A stretch of 36,469 bases of DNA, taken from assembly GCA_003162245.1 (NCBI GenBank), contig PMMM01000109.1, forward strand, positions 1 to 36,469. The letters run 5' to 3'. Numbering within the stretch: the first letter of the stretch is position 1; each line of letters opens with the position of its first letter. Shown in pieces: positions 1-10,147 of the stretch. Position numbers and translations under genes: made by a program. A model generated the notes under the pieces. It saw only the letters and a list, made by a program, of their open reading frames with translations. It searched no databases and was not told the origin of the DNA. This DNA comes from Phycisphaerales bacterium (GTDB taxonomy: Bacteria > Planctomycetota > Phycisphaerae > UBA1845 > Fen-1342).

Positions 1-71
1 GGCGTGGCCAAAGCAGCGGCTGAAAGCGTTGCCAAAAGCGTGATCGTCGTCAGGGTCAGACGTGCTCGCAT
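1..71 (-). CDS. Exported protein, N-terminal fragment (signal peptide only)
   Basis: An ATG at 71-69 on the minus strand follows a GGAGAAAG ribosome-binding site about 3 bases upstream. The 23 readable residues run MRARLTLTT then ITLLATLSAAALAT: two arginines, then a hydrophobic stretch ending in small residues. This is a typical Sec signal peptide. The rest of the gene lies beyond the left edge, so the mature protein and its function cannot be judged. A plausible sigma-70-like promoter lies upstream at 141-170, which supports a real gene start. It is divergent from the dehydrogenase gene at 646. Confidence 0.6.
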   Translation of the reverse strand, partial: MRARLTLTTITLLATLSAAALAT

Positions 72-645
72 ATCTTTCTCCATTCCTTCTGCAGGTCCGT
101 ACGGACAGAACCTAGAGAGATTCCTCATCGTCTCCTGGCCAGTATACCATCGGCCACACACCGGACCCAAGTTTTCCAGCACATTTTTCGGGGCTGGGAG
201 CGGAGCCCGCAGGCCGTTTCGTAGATTCACACGCGGAGGGCAATGGGTTGCGAGGCCAGCACACCGGTCGCGTCGCACGCGTGCAGTTGGTGGTCGCCGG
301 GACGTCGCCAACTCAGGCCTGGGCGGGGCGTGGGGGTGCGAGAGAGAATTCTCACACTGGCGGTCGCACCAGCGGGTCGCCCGGGCGGCCTGTCGGGCAC
401 GCGGTCGCGGCCGCCGGAGAAAACGCCGAAGTGCGTTGCGGAATCGGCGCCGCGACAGTTGTTATCGGTCCAAGGTACGAAGAGGTTACCTGATCGCGGC
501 TGGCGAATGCCGCCGGTAGAATGCACAGGACGCCGCCGGCCCGGTCGAGGCGGGCGGCAGGACGCCCCGGGGCCGAGCCGTGGCCAGACCGGCGGGCGCA
601 GATGGCGACCAAGCAGCGGCGGCGGCCGGCCCCCACGTTGGGTTT
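72..645. other. Divergent intergenic region
   Basis: No convincing gene is present; the reading frames here lack family features. It holds the leftward promoter at 141-170, and a perfect 12-base palindrome GTCCGTACGGAC at 95-106 in the 5' leader of the leftward gene, flanked by TTCT and AGAA. A TAGAAT hexamer at 517-522 could be a -10 box for the rightward dehydrogenase, but no good -35 accompanies it. Confidence 0.5.
141..170 (-). promoter_or_regulatory. Promoter of the leftward exported-protein gene
   Basis: Read on the minus strand, TTGGGT (170-165) is followed after 18 bases by TATACT (146-141), close to the -35/-10 consensus. Transcription would begin near 134, giving a leader of about 60 bases that includes the 12-base palindrome at 95-106, a possible operator or hairpin. 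Confidence 0.45.
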
Positions 646-3540
646 ATGGACTCTTCGACTCACGCACGCGCAGCACCGTTTGACGAGCTGGCTTCGGCCA
701 TCGCGGGCGAGCTTCGCACGGATACGTTGGCGCGGGTGCTCTACGCCACGGACGCCAGCATCTATGAGATGCGACCGGACGCGGTCGTGCTGCCGTGGTC
801 GATCGCAGACGTGGTCGCGACGGTACAATGGTGCGGCCGGCATGGGGTTCCGCTTACGCCGCGTGGAGCAGGCACGGGCCTTTCGGGCGGGGCGGTGAAC
901 CGGGGGGTGCAGCTTGATTGTTCGCGTCATCTGAACCGCATTTTGCAGATCGACCCGCAGCGGCGAATCGCGCGGGTGGAGCCCGGGGTTGTGCTCGACG
1001 AGCTCAACGCGGAGTTGAAGCCACACGGGTTGCATTTTTCCCCCGACGTAGCCACGTCGAATCGGGCGACGATCGGTGGGATGATCGGCAACAACTCGGC
1101 AGGCGCGCACTCGATCATCATGGGGCGGACGAGCGACCACGTGCTGGGCGTGGATGTCGTCCTGTCCGACGGGTCGCTGGCATCGTGGGGAACTGAGGCG
1201 CATGAGGGGGCGGCGAGAGGCGCGGCCGAGAACCCACTTGCCCGCCGTTGCGAGGACGCACTGGCCGCCATCTCCCGGGAATACGCGGGCGAGATTGCGG
1301 CGCGCTTCCCGAAGGTCTTCCGACGTAACGGCGGTTATGCGCTCGACCGGCTGCGGGTCGGCGACGAGCGGATCAACGTCGAGCAGGTGTTGGTCGGGGG
1401 CGAGGGTACGCTGGGGATCGTGGTCGGCGCCACGCTGAACGTGCTGCCGCTGCCGCGCTACAAGGGCTTGGTCGTCGTCCACTACGACGACCTGCTCAAG
1501 GCGCTCAAGTCCGTGCCGGTGCTCTTGCAGCATCGCCCAGCCGCGGTCGAGCTGGTGGACAAGCTGATTCTCGACGGGACGAAGGACAATCCGGCGATGC
1601 GGCGGCGGCGATGGTTTCTGGACGGCGATCCGGCCGCGGTACTTATCGTCGAGCTTTACGAGGAGGATGCGGCGGCGCTGGAGCGACGTCTGCACGACCT
1701 GGTGGCCGACCTGCGAGCGCAGTCGATCGGCTATGCGTGGCCGATCGTGGTCGAGCCGGAGCGCCAGGCGGACATCTGGGAGGTGCGCAAGGCGGGCACG
1801 GGGCTGCTGATGTCGCGGCCGGGCGACACGCAGCCATACGACTTCGTGGACGACTGTGCCGTCGATCCGGCGCGGCTGCACGATTACATCGTGCGGCTGC
1901 ACGAGATCCTGGCGGCGGAGGAGGTGCCGCGGACGGGGTATTACGCGCACGCCAGCGTCGGGCTGCTGCACGTGCGGCCGGCCTTGAACCTGAAGACGCG
2001 CGCGGGGGTCGAGAAGCTGCGGCGCATCGCGGACCGCGTCAGCCTGCTCGTGCGCGAATTCGAGGGGGCGATGACCGGCGAGCACGGCGAGGGGCTGGTG
2101 CGGTCCGAGTGGATCGAGCGGATGTTCGGCCCGGTGCTGGTCGAGGCCTTCCGAAAGGTGAAGACCGCGTTCGACCCGCACAACGTGCTCAATCCCGGCA
2201 AGATCGTCGAGCCGCTGCCGATGGACGCCAACTTGCGCTACGGCGAGGGGTTCGAGTCGCAGAAGCCGGCCACGCTACTGGATTTCTCGGCGTACGGCGG
2301 CATGGCGGGGCTGGCGGAGATGTGCAGTGGGCTGGGCGAATGCCGCAAGCGCCTGGTGGGGACGATGTGCCCATCGTACATGGCGACCGGCGACGAGACG
2401 CACACGACGCGGGCGCGGGCGAACGCGCTGCGGGCGGCGCTGTCGAATCGCGGGCTGCTCGAGGGGCTGTCCGACCCCGCGCTCGACGAGGTCATGGACC
2501 TGTGCCTAGCGTGCAAAGCCTGCAAGACCGAGTGCCCGACCGGCACCGACATGGCCCGGCTCAAGGCGGAGTGGCTGCACCATCGCAACGAACGAGAGGG
2601 CGTGCCGCGGCGGAGCCGGCTGATCGCGTCGTCGGTCGAGATGGCCCCGTGGGGGTGCCACTTCGCACCGCTGAGCAACTGGGTCATGCAGGCGAAGGTG
2701 ACGCGGGCGATCATGGAGCATCTGTACGGGTTGGATCGCCGGGTGCCGCCGCCGCGGTTTGCGCGGCAGACTTTCCGGCGGTGGTTCGCGCAGCGTGCAG
2801 CGCGGACGGCTAACTCGGGGGCGCCCCGGCAAGTCGTGTATTTCGTCGACACGTGGACGAACTTCTACCAGCCGCAGGTCGGCCAGGCGACGGTGAAGGT
2901 GCTGGAAGCACTCGGGTACGAAGTGGTGGTGCCGGCGACGAAATGTTGTGGGCGGCCGCTGATCAGCAAGGGCCTGCTAGCCGAGGCGCGGCAACTCGGC
3001 GAGGCGAACGTGGCGGTGCTGGGGCCCTACGCCGAGCGTGGCGTGGCGATTGTGGGGACGGAGCCGAGCTGCGTCTCGGTTTTTCTGGATGAGTTGCCGC
3101 AGCTCGTGCGGGTGCCAGCGGCGCGGCGGATCGCGGAATGTGCGGTGACGGTCGAGGGTTTCGTGGCCGCGGAGCTGCGGCAGAACGCGGGCGCGTTGCG
3201 ATTCAAGGACGGCGCGGCGACGCTGCTTTACCACGGCCACTGCCACCAGAAGGCCATGCTCGGCACGGCCGATGCGCTGGCCGTGTTGATGGCGTGCACG
3301 CGCGGGCGGGCGACGGAGATCAACAGCGGCTGCTGCGGGATGGCCGGCGCGTTCGGACATGAGGTCGAGCACTACGACGTCGCCCAGGCGGTCGGCGAGC
3401 AACGCTTGTTCCCGGCGATTCGGGCGCGCGGCGAAGCGCAGGTCGCGGTGTCGGGCTTCAGTTGTCGCCACCACATTCTTCAGCACACGGGGGTCCGGGC
3501 GCGACACGTGGTTGAGCATCTGGCGGACATGCTGGCGTGA
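646..3540 (+). CDS. FAD/Fe-S 2-hydroxyacid dehydrogenase, YdiJ type
   Basis: A 964-residue fusion of a GlcD-like FAD oxidase and a GlcF-like iron-sulfur/CCG module, as in E. coli YdiJ (about 1018 residues, D-2-hydroxyglutarate dehydrogenase). The FAD-binding loop PRGAGTGLSGG lies at residues 72-82. The FAD-oxidase C-terminal domain ends near residue 530 with GEHGEG and NPGK motifs. Ferredoxin-type cysteines follow: C560, C566 and C574, then C620-x2-C623-x2-C626-x3-C630. Two CCG motifs are present, KCCGRP near 767 and SGCCGMAG near 896. ATG 646 was chosen over GTG 580 because the extra 22 residues are low-complexity and the remaining N-terminus fits the family. It probably oxidises a D-2-hydroxyacid and passes electrons through Fe-S clusters to an acceptor. 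The exact substrate (2-hydroxyglutarate, lactate or glycolate) cannot be told from sequence. It stands alone and is convergent with the glycosyltransferases. Confidence 0.85.
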   Translation: MDSSTHARAAPFDELASAIAGELRTDTLARVLYATDASIYEMRPDAVVLPWSIADVVATVQWCGRHGVPLTPRGAGTGLSGGAVNRGVQLDCSRHLNRILQIDPQRRIARVEPGVVLDELNAELKPHGLHFSPDVATSNRATIGGMIGNNSAGAHSIIMGRTSDHVLGVDVVLSDGSLASWGTEAHEGAARGAAENPLARRCEDALAAISREYAGEIAARFPKVFRRNGGYALDRLRVGDERINVEQVLVGGEGTLGIVVGATLNVLPLPRYKGLVVVHYDDLLKALKSVPVLLQHRPAAVELVDKLILDGTKDNPAMRRRRWFLDGDPAAVLIVELYEEDAAALERRLHDLVADLRAQSIGYAWPIVVEPERQADIWEVRKAGTGLLMSRPGDTQPYDFVDDCAVDPARLHDYIVRLHEILAAEEVPRTGYYAHASVGLLHVRPALNLKTRAGVEKLRRIADRVSLLVREFEGAMTGEHGEGLVRSEWIERMFGPVLVEAFRKVKTAFDPHNVLNPGKIVEPLPMDANLRYGEGFESQKPATLLDFSAYGGMAGLAEMCSGLGECRKRLVGTMCPSYMATGDETHTTRARANALRAALSNRGLLEGLSDPALDEVMDLCLACKACKTECPTGTDMARLKAEWLHHRNEREGVPRRSRLIASSVEMAPWGCHFAPLSNWVMQAKVTRAIMEHLYGLDRRVPPPRFARQTFRRWFAQRAARTANSGAPRQVVYFVDTWTNFYQPQVGQATVKVLEALGYEVVVPATKCCGRPLISKGLLAEARQLGEANVAVLGPYAERGVAIVGTEPSCVSVFLDELPQLVRVPAARRIAECAVTVEGFVAAELRQNAGALRFKDGAATLLYHGHCHQKAMLGTADALAVLMACTRGRATEINSGCCGMAGAFGHEVEHYDVAQAVGEQRLFPAIRARGEAQVAVSGFSCRHHILQHTGVRARHVVEHLADMLA

Positions 3541-3724
3541 GGCGCTGGCAGCCGGTCGCCCGGGTGGCGGGGGTGGTTTGGCCCACAGCCCGATAAGGAC
3601 GGTAAACGTCTCTGGCCGGGGAAGTTACCGCGAGCGCCGGGTCCGGTACGGCTGGGTTTGGTTGTCGCGGCGGGTGGAGAGCGGGAACTTTTTTCGCGCG
3701 CCCCCTCGTAGACGGCCAAAAGCG

Positions 3725-3733
3725 TGCTAGACT
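3725..3733 (+). promoter_or_regulatory. Extended -10 promoter candidate for the 3739-3809 RNA
   Basis: TGC followed by TAGACT (3728-3733) forms an extended -10 element (TGnTAGACT). No good -35 is visible 17 bases upstream, which extended -10 promoters can tolerate. Predicted initiation near 3739-3741 falls exactly at the start of the terminal stem of the RNA candidate. Confidence 0.35.
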
Positions 3734-3738
3734 AACAG

Positions 3739-3809
3739 GTGTCTGAGCGGTGCGCGGCACGCACAGGTTTCCCCCCGGCCTGTCGGCCCCCTGCTCAGAC
3801 ACTTTTTTT
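3739..3809 (+). ncRNA. Candidate small RNA with closed terminal stem
   Basis: A 71-base unit between convergent genes. GTGTCTGAGC (3739-3748) pairs perfectly with GCTCAGACAC (3793-3802) and is followed directly by seven T residues. Inside the stem are a small hairpin GTGCG/CGCAC (3750-3754/3760-3764), a competing AGG/CCT pairing around a C-rich loop (CCCCCC 3771-3776), and a second C-rich stretch near 3786-3791. An extended -10 box would start transcription at the stem base. C-rich single-stranded loops are a known way for sRNAs to bind G-rich ribosome-binding sites. Alternatively this is only a terminator. Confidence 0.35.
3739..3809 (+). terminator. Rho-independent terminator (10-bp stem, T7)
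   Basis: Perfect 10-base inverted repeat (3739-3748 with 3793-3802) followed by TTTTTTT at 3803-3809. The 44-base loop is long for a simple terminator but has internal pairing. It would end rightward transcription from the dehydrogenase 200 bases upstream, or of the sRNA candidate. There is no T-run on the other strand, so it is one-directional. Confidence 0.65.
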
Positions 3810-3829
3810 GCGCCCACCCGACGCGGGGG

Positions 3830-5152
3830 TCACCGACAATCTGTGGCCACGTTGCGCTGGCCGGCGCGCGAGGCCGCGTACACTTCCAGCGTCTGAGCGA
3901 CCATCTCGTCCGCGGTGCGCACGGGCGTTGCGGGGGGTGGATTCCGCGGGGCGGCGGTCCAGTCGGCCAGGCAGCGGGCGAGGCTGGGCGCGGAGCCAAC
4001 ATCGAAGAGCAACGTGGCGTCCGAAATGACTTCGCTGATCCCGTCTACGCGGCTGGCGACCACTGGAACGCCGACCGCCTGCGCTTCCAACACGGTCTGC
4101 GGCAGATTCTCCGGCCAGATGCTCGGCACAACGAGCAAGTCGAGCCCGGCCAGTAACGCTGGAACCTGCTCGGACGGCACACGTCCGAGCCACTCGACGT
4201 TGAGCCCCTCCGCCAGCGCCCGCAGCCGGCGCCCGTACCGCGCGTCCGTGCCGCCGCCGGCCAGCCGCACGCGCGTCGCGGTCCAGCCCAGTTGTCGCAC
4301 GGCCTCGAGCAACAAGTGCGGCCCCTTGTGCTCCGCCAGCGCCCCGACAAAGCCGAGCGTGAGCTTCGCCGGGTCGCGCGGCGCAAGGTCCCAGGCGGCG
4401 GAGCGTTGCGCGCCGAACCAGCGCGGCTCGAGGCCTACGACGATCGTGTGCAGGCGTGGACGGCTCAGCCGCGGGGCCAGCCGCGCGCGGGCCCCCTGCG
4501 ACAGACAAATGACGGCGTTCGCACTATTCAGAGCCGCCGTCAGGAACCGTTGCCGGCGCGTCCAGCGGATGATCTCCGCCGGCGACGATCCGCCAAGCAG
4601 CGCGCGGGCAAAGTACAGCGTGGAGATGACCGTTTCGCGCAGTCCCGGGACGTGGGCCACGGTACGCAGCCAACGGCGTCGGTCGGATGCGCCGGTACAA
4701 CGAATGCACTCCAGCCACGGGACGTTTCCGTCGCAAATCCCGCCGCGGTAGTGCAGGAGCGTGTGCTTGGGGCACAGCCACCAGTAGTCCATGATCGTCA
4801 CGACGACGGGCACCGCGCGCGTCCGCGCGGCCTGCATCAGACCCACGCCGATGTGGCCGGGGTTCGCGACGTGTACGACGTCCGGCTGCTGACGCTCCAG
4901 AATCGGCATCAGCCGGCGCGGCGCGAGGCCCTGCACGCTCAGGCGGCCGCGCGTCGGGTAGTAGAGCGTGCGCGGCTCATGCTCGAATTCTGTGCCGAGC
5001 GGCAGCGCAGGTCCGCGACGTTCCGGGTCGCCCGCCAGAATGACCACGTCGTGCCCGCGCCGCCGGAGCCCGTCGGCCAGCATGGCGACGTAGCGCTCGG
5101 TGCCCTGCCCGTAGCCCCGCCCGAACTGCATGGTGGCCAGGAGGACTTTCAT
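3830..5152 (-). CDS. GT4-family glycosyltransferase (first of a coupled pair, downstream gene)
   Basis: A 440-residue GT-B fold enzyme. The N-terminus MKVLLATMQFGRGYGQGTERY is the usual first strand and glycine-rich loop of family 4. The C-terminal donor-binding half has GFVGALAEHKGPHLLLEA, then WPENLPQTVLEAQAVGVPVV with the E-x7-E-type glutamates. A cysteine-rich insert in the N-terminal domain (WLCPKH, then CDGNVPWLECIRC) is seen in a subset of these enzymes. It likely transfers a sugar from a nucleotide donor during polysaccharide or glycolipid synthesis on the cytoplasmic side; donor and acceptor are unknown. An alternative start at 5173 (MRYDRPR added) overlaps the upstream stop as TGATG and would give tight coupling. 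I chose 5152 because the family N-terminus begins there. Confidence 0.85.
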   Translation of the reverse strand: MKVLLATMQFGRGYGQGTERYVAMLADGLRRRGHDVVILAGDPERRGPALPLGTEFEHEPRTLYYPTRGRLSVQGLAPRRLMPILERQQPDVVHVANPGHIGVGLMQAARTRAVPVVVTIMDYWWLCPKHTLLHYRGGICDGNVPWLECIRCTGASDRRRWLRTVAHVPGLRETVISTLYFARALLGGSSPAEIIRWTRRQRFLTAALNSANAVICLSQGARARLAPRLSRPRLHTIVVGLEPRWFGAQRSAAWDLAPRDPAKLTLGFVGALAEHKGPHLLLEAVRQLGWTATRVRLAGGGTDARYGRRLRALAEGLNVEWLGRVPSEQVPALLAGLDLLVVPSIWPENLPQTVLEAQAVGVPVVASRVDGISEVISDATLLFDVGSAPSLARCLADWTAAPRNPPPATPVRTADEMVAQTLEVYAASRAGQRNVATDCR

Positions 5153-5172
5153 GCGGGGGCGATCATACCGCA

Positions 5173-6336
5173 TCACGGTGCGCCGAGCGCGCGATGATAG
5201 CAGGCGATCGTCTCGCGGGCGCAGCGTTGCCAGGAAAACGTCGCGGCGCGCCGAAGGCCGCGCTGTCGCCACTGCTCCCGCCAGTCCGCGTCTTCGACCA
5301 TGCGGCGCAGCGCGTTGGTCCAGGCGGGCTCGTCGCGCGGGTCGAGCAGGACGCCGGCATCGCCGACGACTTCGGGCAGCGACGCCGCGTTCGAGACGAT
5401 CACGGGGCAGGCGCACGCCATCGCCTCCAGCGGCGGCAGGCCGAAGCCCTCGTAGAAGGTGGGCCAGACGAGGGCGGTGCAGGCCGAGTACAGCGCCGCG
5501 AGGGCGTCGTCGGGCAGGTAGCCGGCCAGACGGACCTCGCCGCCGATGTCGTGGGCGTGGAGGGAGTCCGCGAGCGCGTTGGTTTGCCAGCCCCAGTCGC
5601 CGGCCAGGACCAGCGGGTTCTGCTCGCGTAACCCGCGCGGCAGGGCCGCGAAGGCCGCGAGCAGGCCGGGCACATTCTTGCGCGGCTCGAGCGTGCCGAC
5701 GAACAGGAAGAAGCGCGCGGGCAGCCCGAGCTGGCGGCAGATGCGTCGTGCGGCGTCCGCATCGGCGGGACGGAAAGCCGGACGCGGGGCCTGATAGGTG
5801 ACGTCGATCACGTCCGGCGACAGCCCGAGGTGCTGGATCATTTCCCGCTTCGTGAACTCCGAGGCGGCGATGAAACGGCGGGTTTGTCGCACGCCGGCGG
5901 CGAATTCGCGCTCGTACCAGCGGACGCGGTCGGCGGGGTGCCACGTGGGGTGCAAGAGCACGGAAAGGTCGTGGATCGTCGTGACGGTCGGGACGCCGCA
6001 GCGGATCGGGATGTGGTTCGGCTCGTGGTACAGGTCGTAACCGCAGGCTCGTGCGCGAAACGCGGTTCGGTAGGCACCCTGCAACACGCGGCGCAGCCAC
6101 CAGCTACTACGCGCGCGCTGGACCAGCGACGGCTTAGCCGGCCGGTGCGTGGTGCCGCGATATGCCTTCATGCGAGGCTTGGGAGCGGGCAGGAACGCGG
6201 CCAGGAACGGCTCGACCGCGACCGCGTCCCTTTCCCGCGGCAGCGCGCCGAGCAACTGCGCGACATAATGCCCCACGCCGGTCAGCGGCCGGTAGAGGAC
6301 ACGGTCGTTCAGGATGACACGTGGCCGGTCGATCAG
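5173..6336 (-). CDS. GT4-family glycosyltransferase, probable CTG start
   Basis: A GT-B glycosyltransferase of about 387 residues. Seen motifs: [12 protein letters not shown] near the N-terminus, [27 protein letters not shown], and [24 protein letters not shown], the donor-binding EGFGLPxLE(A/M) signature of mannosyltransferase-like family 4 enzymes. The first ATG/GTG/TTG in frame is GTG 6276, inside the conserved GVGHYV loop, so it is too late. Upstream the frame continues as [19 protein letters not shown] and stops at 6342-6340. The only suitable start is CTG at 6336-6334, with GGAG 7 bases upstream. Its 3' end overlaps a possible ATG of the next glycosyltransferase (TGATG), so the two are likely one operon making a glycan. 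The acceptor is unknown. Confidence 0.8.
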
Positions 6337-6374
6337 CTTCTAACTCCGCGAGGCAGCGCGCTACGGCGCGCCCG

Positions 6375-6380
6375 ATTATG
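6375..6380 (-). promoter_or_regulatory. Possible -10 box for the glycosyltransferase operon
   Basis: CATAAT on the minus strand (plus-strand ATTATG) lies about 40 bases upstream of the glycosyltransferase start at 6336. No clear -35 accompanies it. It is the best AT-rich hexamer in the divergent gap 6337-6541. Confidence 0.25.
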
Positions 6381-6459
6381 CGCGCCAACGGGCGATTCTC
6401 CCATGCCCCAGATGCACCACGGGGGCGCTTGGGGGAAGGACTCCGACGGGGCGGGCCGG

Positions 6460-6465
6460 TACAAT
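6460..6465 (+). promoter_or_regulatory. Possible -10 box for the hyp-hox operon
   Basis: TACAAT at 6460-6465 in a GC-rich background, about 75 bases upstream of hypC. A matching -35 is not evident, so an alternative sigma factor or activator could be involved. This is the only promoter-like element seen ahead of the hydrogenase block. Confidence 0.3.
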
Positions 6466-6541
6466 GTAACGGAGCCCGATTGCGGGATGGGGGCGGCGGT
6501 CACGCCGGCGGCGAGCCCGGGCGTGTCCAAGGGTGTCGTGC

Positions 6542-6826
6542 ATGTGCTTGGCGGTTCCAGGGAAAGTCATCGAGTGCCGCGGGGACGAGGCGGTCGTCGA
6601 CCTGCAAGGCAGCACGCTGCGGGTCAGCAGGGTCCTCACGCCGGAAGCGGATGTCGGCTCGTGGGTGCTGGTGCACGCCGGCTTCGCGATTGCGCAGCTT
6701 GACGAGCGGGAGGCGCTGGAGACCTGGGACTACCTCCGCCAGATATTGGCAACCGAGCCCGCCGACTCCGAACGTGAGACGCAAACGACGGACCAAGCCC
6801 CGCGCGGGGAGGGAAGCCCAGCTTGA
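6542..6826 (+). CDS. hypC: [NiFe] hydrogenase maturation chaperone HypC
   Basis: A 94-residue HypC/HupF family protein. It starts MCLAVPGKVIE, where Cys2 (N-terminal after Met removal) binds the Fe(CN)2CO precursor and the HypD/large-subunit partner. ATG 6542 was chosen because Cys must follow the first Met; the GTG three codons upstream would bury it. An AAGGG site lies 8 bases upstream. The core beta-barrel (AVVDLQGSTLRVSRVL, then GSWVLVHAGFAIAQLDEREA) is complete; the last 20 residues are polar and probably disordered. The stop overlaps the TTG start of hypD (TTGA), so translation is coupled. First gene of the hydrogenase block. Confidence 0.95.
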   Translation: MCLAVPGKVIECRGDEAVVDLQGSTLRVSRVLTPEADVGSWVLVHAGFAIAQLDEREALETWDYLRQILATEPADSERETQTTDQAPRGEGSPA

Positions 6827-7932
6827 CCGACCGCGTCGCCCAACTCGTCGATGAGCTGCACGGCCTCTGCCGCGACGTGGGCCGCCGCATCCAGGTTATG
6901 GAGGTGTGCGGGACGCACACGGTCGCGATCTTCCGCACGGGTATCCGGTCGCTGCTGCCTGCGAACCTGCGGCTGGTGAGCGGCCCGGGTTGCCCGGTGT
7001 GCGTAACCGCCCAGCGGCACATCGACGCGGCACTGGAACTGGCCGGGCGGCCGGGCGTGATCCTCGCGACGTACGGAGACATGCTGCGCGTGCCGGGGCG
7101 GTCGGGGAGCTTGGAGCGGTTGCGGGCGACCGGGGCGCAGGTGCAGGTCGTGAACTCGGCGCGAACCGCGCTCGACCTGGCCCGCGCGAACCCGCAGAGC
7201 CCGGTGGTGTTCCTCGGCGTGGGCTTCGAGACCACCGCACCGGCCACCGCGGCGACGGTCCTGGAGGCCGACCGCGACGGAGTCGAGAACTTCAGCGTCC
7301 TGATGTGCCACAAGCTGGTGGTGCCGGCGATGCAGGCGTTGCTGGACGCGGGCGACGTGCCGCTCGACGGATTCCTGGCGCCCGGTCACGTCAGCGTCAT
7401 CATCGGCGCGCAGGCGTATCAGCCGATCGTCGCAAAGCACCGCCGGCCGGTCGTCGTGGCGGGGTTCGAGCCGGAGCAGATCATGCGGGGGTTGCTGGCG
7501 CTGGTCCGGCAAGTGGCCGAGGGGCGGGCGGCGGTCGAGAACGTGTATCCGGGCGTGGTGACGGCGGACGGAAACCGCGTGGCGCTGGAGCTGCTGCGGC
7601 GCGTGTTCGTCGTCGCGGATGCGCCCTGGCGCGAGTTGGGCGTGATTCCGCAGAGCGGGCTGGAGTTGGCCGCGGTGTATCGGCGCTTCGATGCGCTGCA
7701 ACGGTTCGAGCTCGCGCTCGGAGAAGATGAGGGCCACCCGCTCTGCCGCTGTGGCGAGGTGATTACGGGCAAGGCGGAGCCGAGCGAATGCCCGGCGTTC
7801 GCCACCGCGTGCGATCCGCTCAATCCCATCGGGCCGTGCATGGTCAGCAGCGAGGGGACGTGCGCGGCGTGGTACAAATACAACAGGGTTCAGGGCCCTG
7901 GCGCACAGCGCGTGCCGGAGGGGCAGCGGTGA
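6823..7932 (+). CDS. hypD: Hydrogenase Fe-site assembly protein HypD
   Basis: A 369-residue HypD. With HypC it is the scaffold on which the Fe(CN)2CO unit is built. Seen motifs: MEVCGTHT with C29, and GPGCPVC with C57 and C60, the conserved cysteines for iron binding and thiol redox chemistry. C-terminal cysteines for the [4Fe-4S] cluster lie in LCRCGEVITGKAEPSECPAF, FATACDP and GPCMVSSEGTCAAWYKY. The start is TTG 6823, within the hypC stop, with GGGGAGGG upstream. The stop overlaps the GTG of hypE (GTGA). Length is normal for the family. Confidence 0.95.
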   Translation: MTDRVAQLVDELHGLCRDVGRRIQVMEVCGTHTVAIFRTGIRSLLPANLRLVSGPGCPVCVTAQRHIDAALELAGRPGVILATYGDMLRVPGRSGSLERLRATGAQVQVVNSARTALDLARANPQSPVVFLGVGFETTAPATAATVLEADRDGVENFSVLMCHKLVVPAMQALLDAGDVPLDGFLAPGHVSVIIGAQAYQPIVAKHRRPVVVAGFEPEQIMRGLLALVRQVAEGRAAVENVYPGVVTADGNRVALELLRRVFVVADAPWRELGVIPQSGLELAAVYRRFDALQRFELALGEDEGHPLCRCGEVITGKAEPSECPAFATACDPLNPIGPCMVSSEGTCAAWYKYNRVQGPGAQRVPEGQR

Positions 7933-8975
7933 CCGCCGTGAAGCCTGGCCTCGGCCACGACCGGATTGTGATCGCCCACGGCGGCGGCGGGGAGCTGATG
8001 GGGCGGCTCATTCGCGAGCACCTGCTGCCGCCGCTGCGGAATGAGCGGCTGGCGGCGCTGACGGACAGCGCGGTCTTGCCGTGGCCGGACGGCGAGCTGG
8101 TTTTCACGACGGACTCGTACGTCGTGACGCCGCTCGAGTTTCCGGGCGGGGATATCGGGCGGCTGGCGGTGGCGGGCACGGTGAACGATCTGGCGGTGAT
8201 GGGGGCGGAGCCGGTCGCGCTGTCGCTCGGGTTGATTCTCGAAGAGGGATTGCCGCTGGCCGTGCTCGACCGGATCGTCGCCTCGATCGCGGGGGCGGCG
8301 CGCGAGGCCGGCGTCGAGGTCGTCACGGGCGACACGAAGGTCATCGAGCGCGGCGCGGGCACGGCCGACTCGTCGCGCGGGCTGTTCATCAACACGGCCG
8401 GCGTCGGGCGAATGCGCCGCGGCGTGCAGCTCGGGCTGCGACGCGTCGCGGTCGGCGACGCAATCCTGGTGAACGGCCCGATCGCCGAGCATGGGCTGGC
8501 CGTAATGTCCGTGCGGAGCGGGATCGAATTCGAGTCGACGCTGCGGAGCGACGTGGCCCCGCTCAACGGCTTGATCCGGGACATTCTGGCCACTGGGGCG
8601 GACGTCAAGTTCCTGCGGGACGCGACGCGCGGCGGCATTGCGGGCGTACTGGCGGACATCTGCGAGGCGTCGCAGCGCAGCGTCGAAATCGTCGAGGCCC
8701 AGGTGCCGCTTTCAACCACCGCCCGCCATGCGGCCGAAATGCTCGGGCTGGACCCGCTGACCGTGGCGAACGAGGGCAAGTGCATCATGGTCGTAGCGGC
8801 CGGCGACGCCGAACGGGTCCTGGCGGCGTGTCGCGGCAACCCGTTGGGGCGCGGGGCGGCGTCGATCGGCCGGATCACGGACGCCGCACCGCCGCTGGTG
8901 GAGCTGATTACGCGTGTTGGCGGGCGGCGGGTCGTGCAGCGGCCGTATGGCGAGGAGTTGCCGCGGATATGCTGA
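7929..8975 (+). CDS. hypE: Hydrogenase maturation dehydratase HypE
   Basis: A 348-residue HypE of the PurM/AIR-synthase fold. It converts the thiocarbamate that HypF loads on its C-terminal Cys to thiocyanate, the CN ligand donor. The N-terminus has the glycine-rich IAHGGGGELMGRLI, followed by FTTDSYVVTPLEFPGGDIG and VTGDTKVIERG (ATP/Mg binding). The protein ends in the canonical PRIC, so the acceptor Cys348 is intact. GTG 7929 overlaps the hypD stop. HypF itself is not in this window and must be elsewhere if the enzyme is mature. Immediately downstream is a palindromic repeat element before hypA. Confidence 0.95.
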   Translation: MTAVKPGLGHDRIVIAHGGGGELMGRLIREHLLPPLRNERLAALTDSAVLPWPDGELVFTTDSYVVTPLEFPGGDIGRLAVAGTVNDLAVMGAEPVALSLGLILEEGLPLAVLDRIVASIAGAAREAGVEVVTGDTKVIERGAGTADSSRGLFINTAGVGRMRRGVQLGLRRVAVGDAILVNGPIAEHGLAVMSVRSGIEFESTLRSDVAPLNGLIRDILATGADVKFLRDATRGGIAGVLADICEASQRSVEIVEAQVPLSTTARHAAEMLGLDPLTVANEGKCIMVVAAGDAERVLAACRGNPLGRGAASIGRITDAAPPLVELITRVGGRRVVQRPYGEELPRIC

Positions 8976-8996
8976 AGGAAGCCGGATGGAAAGAGC

Positions 8997-9095
8997 GAAT
9001 TAAGAATTTGGGAATTAGGAATTGAGAATGAAACTAACGGCCCGGGGCGTCGCCGGCGCGTCTTTCTCAATTCTCAATCCTCAATTCTGAATTCC
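8997..9095. repeat. Intergenic inverted-repeat element, copy A (hypE|hypA)
   Basis: The left arm at 8997-9033 is built of GAATT/GAATG units (core GAATTAAGAAT at 8997-9007). The right arm at 9061-9095 has the complementary CTCAATTCTCAATCCTCAATTC pattern. A GC-rich spacer (9034-9060) forms the tip. It fills nearly the whole gap between hypE and hypA. Its base composition is much more AT-rich than the genes. It resembles copies B-D in sharing GANTTAAGANT. Confidence 0.6.
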
Positions 9096-9116
9096 TCAGC
9101 GGCACACGGGACTGAC

Positions 9117-9482
9117 ATGCACGAAATGTCGATCGCAATGGCGCTCGTGGAGCAGTTGCAGCGGATCGCCGCCGAGCAGCACGCCACGCGCATTACCGAG
9201 GTGGAGGTACGGTGCGGCGTGCTGCGGCAAGTCGTGCCGGAGGCGCTGGAGTTGGCGTTTTGTGCGGCCAGCGCCGAGACCCCGGCGGCGGGCGCCCTGC
9301 TCCGGGTAGTGGAAGAAGGGCTGCGGGCGCGTTGCCGGGCGTGCGGGCAGGAGTTTGAGGCGGCGATCGACAACTACCTGTGCCCGCAGTGCCGGATGGC
9401 GGACGTGGAGTTGCTCGCGGGCCGGGACGTCGTGTTGCAATCGGTGACGTGCGAGACCGAGGACAGGGACCGGGCACCATGA
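9117..9482 (+). CDS. hypA: Hydrogenase nickel metallochaperone HypA
   Basis: A 121-residue HypA. It starts MHEMSIA, with the nickel-binding His2 and Glu3 of the family. The zinc-binding loop has C73-x2-C76 and C89-x2-C92 (RCRACGQ, then LCPQCR). It passes Ni(II) with HypB to the hydrogenase large subunit. ATG 9117 follows the repeat element; no strong Shine-Dalgarno is visible. The stop overlaps the hypB ATG (ATGA). Confidence 0.95.
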   Translation: MHEMSIAMALVEQLQRIAAEQHATRITEVEVRCGVLRQVVPEALELAFCAASAETPAAGALLRVVEEGLRARCRACGQEFEAAIDNYLCPQCRMADVELLAGRDVVLQSVTCETEDRDRAP

Positions 9483-10147
9483 AGATCAAGGTCGTCGAGA
9501 GCGTGCTGAAGGCGAACGACGCGGTCGCGCGGGAGAACCGCAAGCGGCTGGACGCCGCGGGCGTGCTGGCCATTAATCTGATGAGTGCGCCGGGGAGCGG
9601 CAAGACGCTGCTGCTGGAGAAGACGATCCCGGCGCTCGCGCCGCGACGCTGCGCGGTGCTGGTCGGCGACTTGCAGACGACGCGCGACGCCGAGCGGCTG
9701 GGGTCGGTGGCAACCCAGGTGACGCAAATCAACACGGGGACGGGCTGTCACCTGACGGCCACGCAGGTCGCCGAGGGTCTGGACGGCCTGGAGCTCGAGG
9801 GGATGGATTACCTGTTTGTCGAGAATGTCGGGAACATGGTCTGCCCGGCGGCGTTCGACCTCGGGGAGCATCGGCGGGTCGCCCTGCTCAGCGTTCCGGA
9901 GGGCGACGACAAGGTGGCGAAGTACCCCACGCTCTTTCAGGCGGCGGACGCGATCGTGCTGACCAAGGTCGACCTGCTGGGCGTGCTTGACTACGAGCGT
10001 CAGCGGGTATATGAAGACCTCTCACGGATCAACACGCGTGCACCGCTACTGGAGCTTTCCTCCAAGACAGGTCAGGGCCTGGAGGGCTGGCTGACCTGGG
10101 TGCAGCAGCAGCGGCAGCGCCTTTGTCCGTCGCGGTCGCCGGGGTGA
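9479..10147 (+). CDS. hypB: Hydrogenase nickel-insertion GTPase HypB
   Basis: A 222-residue SIMIBI GTPase. The P-loop SAPGSGKT is at 36-43 and GDLQTTRDA is the switch I region. The metal-site residues of the G domain are present: C90-H91 (GTGCHL) and C122 (VGNMVCP). LTKVDLLG is the base-recognition motif. It lacks both the N-terminal CxxCGC high-affinity nickel motif and a His-rich stretch, so it is the minimal HypB form and does not store nickel. ATG 9479 lies inside the hypA stop, so HypA and HypB are made together. A 45-base gap separates it from hoxF. Confidence 0.95.
   Translation: MKIKVVESVLKANDAVARENRKRLDAAGVLAINLMSAPGSGKTLLLEKTIPALAPRRCAVLVGDLQTTRDAERLGSVATQVTQINTGTGCHLTATQVAEGLDGLELEGMDYLFVENVGNMVCPAAFDLGEHRRVALLSVPEGDDKVAKYPTLFQAADAIVLTKVDLLGVLDYERQRVYEDLSRINTRAPLLELSSKTGQGLEGWLTWVQQQRQRLCPSRSPG

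Follow-up and report, generated by a model that had tools for sequence, protein, structure and literature searches.

We found that a short intergenic element in the window (the whole 36,469-nucleotide stretch analysed, a contig from a Phycisphaerales genome) belongs to an RNA family that recurs across the class Phycisphaerae. Homology, a conserved structure and loop, and promoter-like and terminator elements show, at the level of sequence, that this is a real RNA family. We propose, with a probability of roughly 0.6, that the element is a free-standing small RNA (sRNA) gene, one of five paralogues in its genome, and that its C-loop serves as a seed for pairing with mRNA G-tracts without Hfq.

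The candidate sRNA gene (positions 3738 to 3809, + strand) is about 70 nt long and carries the C-loop of the family, as judged from its copies, its fold, covariation, and the covariance model R3. The 289-bp gap that contains it is bounded upstream by an FAD-linked oxidase fused to an Fe-S/CCG domain (580 to 3540, +; stop codon, 3538 to 3540) and downstream by a family 4 glycosyltransferase (3830 to 5152, -; stop codon, 3830 to 3832). This confirms the convergent neighbours described in a first-pass annotation. Reading the sequence places an extended -10 promoter element, TGCTAGACT, at 3725 to 3733 (+), with TAGACT at 3728 to 3733 as the -10 box. The 5' arm of the terminator stem, GTGTCTGAGC (3739 to 3748, +), is the exact reverse complement of the 3' arm, GCTCAGACAC (3793 to 3802, +), with which it forms 10 perfect base pairs, and the stem runs into the U-tract of an intrinsic terminator, T7 (3803 to 3809, +). 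The extended -10 element, the stem, and T7 all stand exactly where the annotation had put them. T7 occurs once in the window, as does a perfect 10-bp stem followed by T7, and that combination was absent from 60 dinucleotide shuffles of the window. There is no A7 run in the window, and the minus strand has no T-run after the stem, which rules out a two-way terminator.

The 72-nt RNA has a predicted folding energy of -38.7 kcal/mol, against -23.3 ± 3.0 kcal/mol for shuffled sequences (z = -5.2). From position 3738, the RNA is predicted to form a single long hairpin. Its apical part, ACAGGUU-UC6-GGCCUGU (3763 to 3783, +), holds at the tip the loop U-CCCCCC (UC6, 3770 to 3776), closed by ACAGGUU and GGCCUGU; the six Cs (3771 to 3776, +) are conserved and predicted to be single stranded. 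The annotation had claimed two C-rich single-stranded stretches. The UC6 loop is the one that stood, whereas the second C-run (3787 to 3791, +) is predicted to pair with the G-rich 5' strand. The -35 box of the window copy is poor (degenerate CTCGTA at 3705 to 3710, +), and a strict sigma-70 scan of positions 1 to 10000 found no site. An automatic scan missed the element because it allowed loops of at most 8 and demanded a stricter promoter.

Other genes in the window were also recorded. The oxidase frame (580 to 3540, +) is a 986-aa single-frame fusion of GlcD-like FAD oxidase, Fer4, and CCG domains. Pfam identified the hydrogenase maturation genes HypC (6533 to 6826, +) and HypD (6823 to 7932, +), and a HypE-like frame after HypD was recognized by reading alone, so that the hyp region spans 6533 to 8975 (+). 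The organism therefore probably makes an [NiFe] hydrogenase.

Five copies of the element are present in its own genome: C175 (in the window), C92, C189, C206, and C11; C11 is followed by a weak T-run and sits close to where its contig ends. Two of the further copies in this genome are close ones. A DNA-similarity search of 41 genomes yielded 19 copies spread over 9 of them, and a first covariance model, R1, recovered 20 copies in 9 of the 27 genomes of the window's family, together with a single-copy relative in another family. A core-pattern scan of the collection matched 13 contigs, each with Phycisphaerae, Phycisphaerales, or planctomycete in its title. The second model, R2, was trained on 19 sequences, 18 from family f23 and L076 from f15, with none from the window's family. 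It detected relatives in 87 of the 397 class genomes searched and in 9 of 392 genomes of a phylum sample whose out-of-class share is not shown; all 9 belong to the class. R2 also weakly reached copies of the window's family in four genomes (G000, the element's own, G003, G014, and G016), at E-values of 0.002 to 0.008, which like all of the model E-values are rough. A broad model, R3, built from 75 R2 matches, matched 41 of the 114 genomes searched in the order, including 24 of the 27 in the window's family; the other 3 gave no match. Genomes of the window's family that carry the element have one to five copies each. R3 also found a second subfamily (CCGGGCCGG...GUGUC8GCAC...CCGGCCC) that was absent from its training set, at 24 loci in 22 genomes of the window's family (alignment A9). 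Alignments A6 to A8 were fitted to the structure of their model; A1 to A5 and A9 were not.

Some rows of these alignments deserve caution. We distrust L182, L198, L199, L201, and L202, which have only C5 and look like chance matches or another element, and we regard L200 as doubtful. All six are included in the R3 training alignment (A6), in the 75-row covariation set, and in the count of C-runs over 120 matches; L183 and L042 are the same locus, so the 75-row set has 74 distinct rows. Four of these elements (L198:1526-1611, L199:1494-1579, L201:1490-1570, and L202:1489-1572) have a terminator stem like GGCGAGG/CCUCGCC with a C5 loop, preceded by a shared stretch containing ACCACGGA, with two copies in genome G358. 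They are possibly another sRNA family. L200:301-400 (G183), on a short contig, has a hairpin with a C7 loop, a long T-run, and a stem unlike the others, and it is a possible divergent member. Genome G022 carries a close pair of copies, and two f25 genomes carry tandem sRNA gene pairs about 60 nt apart (L187:1554-1794 and L203:1544-1790), in which the 5' part of the second copy differs.

We then examined whether the predicted structure is maintained among the copies. In the 19 close copies, 99.3% of cells are paired, and 6 of 24 pairs show double changes, with 19 double-change cells against 4.0 in shuffles. In the 75 wider matches (74 distinct), double changes affect 24 of 25 pairs. In A7, an alignment of 63 wider matches fitted to its model, 92.5% of cells pair, 24 of 25 pairs are doubly changed, and double-change cells number 461 against 152.7 in shuffles. 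The compensatory changes whose lack would have counted against the annotation's proposal are therefore present in the close and the wider sets. Around the C-run, the 19 close copies share a nearly invariant core, and their flanks differ freely. An apical run of 6 to 10 Cs is found in 115 of the 120 model matches, the 5 exceptions being the distrusted C5 matches. The stem directly below the loop varies on both strands (CCGG/CCGG, CCGU/ACGG, GUGG/CCAC, ACGUG/CACGU, and GCGCG/CGCGC). In f21, f23, and f25, an additional 5' hairpin precedes the main hairpin and covaries independently. Each member that was read, the window copy included, has one C-loop, with L057 as the sole exception seen. L057:1475-1569 has two C7 stretches in loop-like positions and resembles the two-loop plan of the 6C RNAs.

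Promoter-like elements accompany these hairpins. A -10 box, TANANT, is present in all 19 close copies at a near-fixed distance from the stem despite differing flanks, in support of the annotation's sRNA reading, and TTG occupies the -35 place in 13 of the 19 (counted by eye). For synteny and promoter counts, we used 49 fetched R2 loci, namely matches scoring 54 bits or more, with a single match taken from each genome and weaker and second matches omitted. TTGAC-N15-19 followed by a -10-like box lies upstream of 38 of these 49 loci, and control windows of the same loci contained it in 89 of 4019 random and 151 of 3219 AT-rich cases. The element might instead do no more than terminate transcription of the upstream oxidase gene, its -10 box having arisen by chance. 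It does look like a textbook intrinsic terminator about 200 bp behind a same-strand gene, and its own -35 box is poor. However, its T7 lies about 260 bp past the oxidase stop codon, the upstream gene is oppositely directed at other loci, and a terminator needs neither an invariant loop of 6 to 10 Cs nor a class-wide core. Conservation extends beyond the stem and the U-tract to the C-loop and to TANANT, which none of the 19 close copies has lost, so we rejected the terminator reading as very unlikely.

Gene neighbourhoods point the same way. A yjbQ gene (UPF0047, by Pfam) lies downstream on the opposite strand near 39 of the 49 R2 loci. At 24 of 29 f23 loci, a motif search found a YggS-like upstream gene directed away from the RNA; the one f23 member checked with Pfam is Ala_racemase_N. 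In the window's family, six loci adjoin a gene that carries a VTT domain and faces away from the RNA (identified with Pfam at two), three of them with a SelB-like gene downstream (Pfam for one), and another group of three loci follows a DUF2961 gene (Pfam for one). At the six VTT loci and in f23, read-through from an upstream gene that points away cannot make the RNA. Loci of the second subfamily have neighbours common to up to 11 genomes. Conserved neighbours within clades indicate old, vertically inherited loci and not a mobile repeat. A REP- or MITE-like element spread by copying would account for several copies per genome and for the close pair in G022, but the loci are syntenic between genera, the copies are few (no more than five in any genome of the window's family), and they diverge in sequence yet retain base pairs and promoter. 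We rejected this explanation as highly improbable. A search of viral contigs for GGTTTCCCCCCCRGCC gave 15 stretches, none of which, by eye, had the pairing stem of the family, and it thus gave no phage link. The structured RNA with a terminator end could also suggest a cis-acting leader, a riboswitch or attenuator, of a downstream gene. Gene direction makes this extremely improbable, and we rejected it as well, since the next gene is convergent in the window, the downstream neighbour is convergent in f23 too, and downstream genes vary between groups. Therefore, we favor a free-standing sRNA gene. The element is intergenic and has its own promoter-like and intrinsic terminator sequence elements, as for a trans-acting sRNA, and the family, its covariation, and the promoter-like elements support the sRNA that the first-pass annotation had suspected.

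We compared the family with known RNAs. Rfam searches of the window at gathering score, and of the element and 13 loci at relaxed E-values, gave only chance matches at the element; mir-134, for instance, scored 17.8 bits against a cut-off of 68 and was dismissed as chance. The closest parallel in layout is 6C/B11 (RF01066; cgb_03605 in Corynebacterium). Like the RNA here, it is about 70 to 100 nt long and intergenic, with loop runs of at least 6 Cs and a C-loop on the terminator. This C-rich loop on an intrinsic terminator is present in the window copy. According to the available part of one study, the terminator C-loop of Mycobacterium marinum B11 pairs with G-tracts at ribosome-binding sites (RBSs) (PMC12395582). 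However, 6C RNAs, which the accessible source text says were named after two C-loops, have two such loops, whereas members here have one (L057 excepted). The 6C model (cut-off, 47 bits) scored above its cut-off in none of the 27 genomes of the window's family and gave nothing at an E-value of up to 10 in the element's own genome. By the cut-off score and the two-loop feature, the family is not a member of 6C, which is reported from Actinobacteria, although it may act in a similar way.

RepG of Helicobacter pylori is similar in layout. In the portion of the RepG paper available, a terminator-hairpin loop rich in C and U acts as the seed that recognizes G-repeats in the leaders of mRNAs, and Hfq is not mentioned (PMC8295292). 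RepG has a known G-repeat target, whereas the searches described below gave no conserved target for the Phycisphaerae RNA. A motif called Rhodopirellula-1, from Proteobacteria and Planctomycetes, is listed in a study whose accessible text does not give its details (PMC2864571). Parts of three other sources were also drawn on (PMC10470900, PMC4046766, and PMC9029176). Literature searches, with preprints and most subscription papers outside their coverage, and Rfam yielded no description of the family in print. Judged by sequence and published descriptions, we class the family as a new one, although sRNAs of its kind are already known. Short C-rich loop motifs, such as UCCC and CCUCCUCCC, pair with RBSs in LhrC, RsaE, and cuckoo/CcsR of Listeria, Staphylococcus, and Alphaproteobacteria. 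These sRNAs differ from the RNA here in loop sequence and host, and no Rfam family was matched here.

Because the layout matches B11/6C and RepG, pairing of the C-loop with mRNA G-tracts would, by analogy, most likely be the mode of action. In this mechanism, the RNA would be transcribed from its own promoter-like element and end at the intrinsic terminator, and its main hairpin would present an unpaired run of 6 to 10 Cs at the tip. The terminator C-loop would serve as the seed for G-tracts, mostly near RBSs, and pairing may lower translation. The tight, GC-rich hairpin may let the RNA act without Hfq. A search for Hfq (PF17209) was negative in all 25 genomes searched, with controls giving a signal in 5 of 14, and this absence makes an Hfq-free mode likely.

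We also looked for targets. G-runs of at least four at -20 to 0 of genes were not enriched, occurring at 14 of 286 and 14 of 287 genes in two genomes that carry the RNA and at 12 of 261 in one without a match. This and the other target tests looked at 400 kb of each genome, with simple gene calls limited to ATG starts and with perfect G-runs, and would therefore have missed a small number of targets. In six genomes, G7AAA was listed at 34 places (4 without a locus), and among the 24 non-sRNA loci read it matched an RBS once. That site, GGGGGGGAAA 4 bases before an ATG in L139:801-1510 (G247), is the only perfect loop complement at an RBS among the loci read in the six genomes; its gene, which we take to encode an exported PEP-CTERM-like protein, is a lone candidate target. 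G6 at the yjbQ RBS was seen only in two species of one genus. GGGGGG-N3-11-ATGR occurred 170 times in four congeneric genomes, against 96 for the reversed control, and most of the matches read lie inside genes. G7AAA, RBS G-runs, GGGGGG-N3-11-ATGR, and yjbQ leaders thus gave no conserved target. The pairing with G-rich RBSs suggested by the annotation is plausible by analogy, but the genome G-tract test gave no signal for it.

Alternatively, the exposed C-run might bind a protein or a single G-rich RNA, and the RNA would then work as a decoy or sponge instead of through an antisense seed. In favor of this, the C-run persists as the surrounding sequence changes, several paralogues per genome would fit titration, and the G-run test left no signature of mRNA targets. 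However, proven analogues of the same layout act by pairing, as far as the available accounts of them go, and we know of no poly-C-binding partner in Phycisphaerae. We consider a decoy or sponge rather unlikely and prefer the antisense seed. Possible, though doubtful, is a broader proposal that the RNA is an Hfq-free, class-wide core sRNA that has multiplied into paralogues in some families. Its exposed poly-C loop would be the one invariant element used for recognition, either controlling a network of G-tract mRNAs or docking a poly-C-binding partner. If true, planctomycetes would thereby gain their first widespread family of regulatory RNAs, which might have an RNA-binding protein of its own.

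Few regulatory RNAs have been described from planctomycetes; in one review table, the PVC group as a whole accounts for 8 sRNA families, compared with 345 in Proteobacteria. The family described here, conserved and multi-copy, with covarying stems and an invariant C-loop, offers a handle on RNA regulation in bacteria where Hfq was not found, and metatranscriptomes can be searched for it immediately with its covariance models. The family appears to be an independent case of the C-loop-on-terminator design known from Actinobacteria and Helicobacter.
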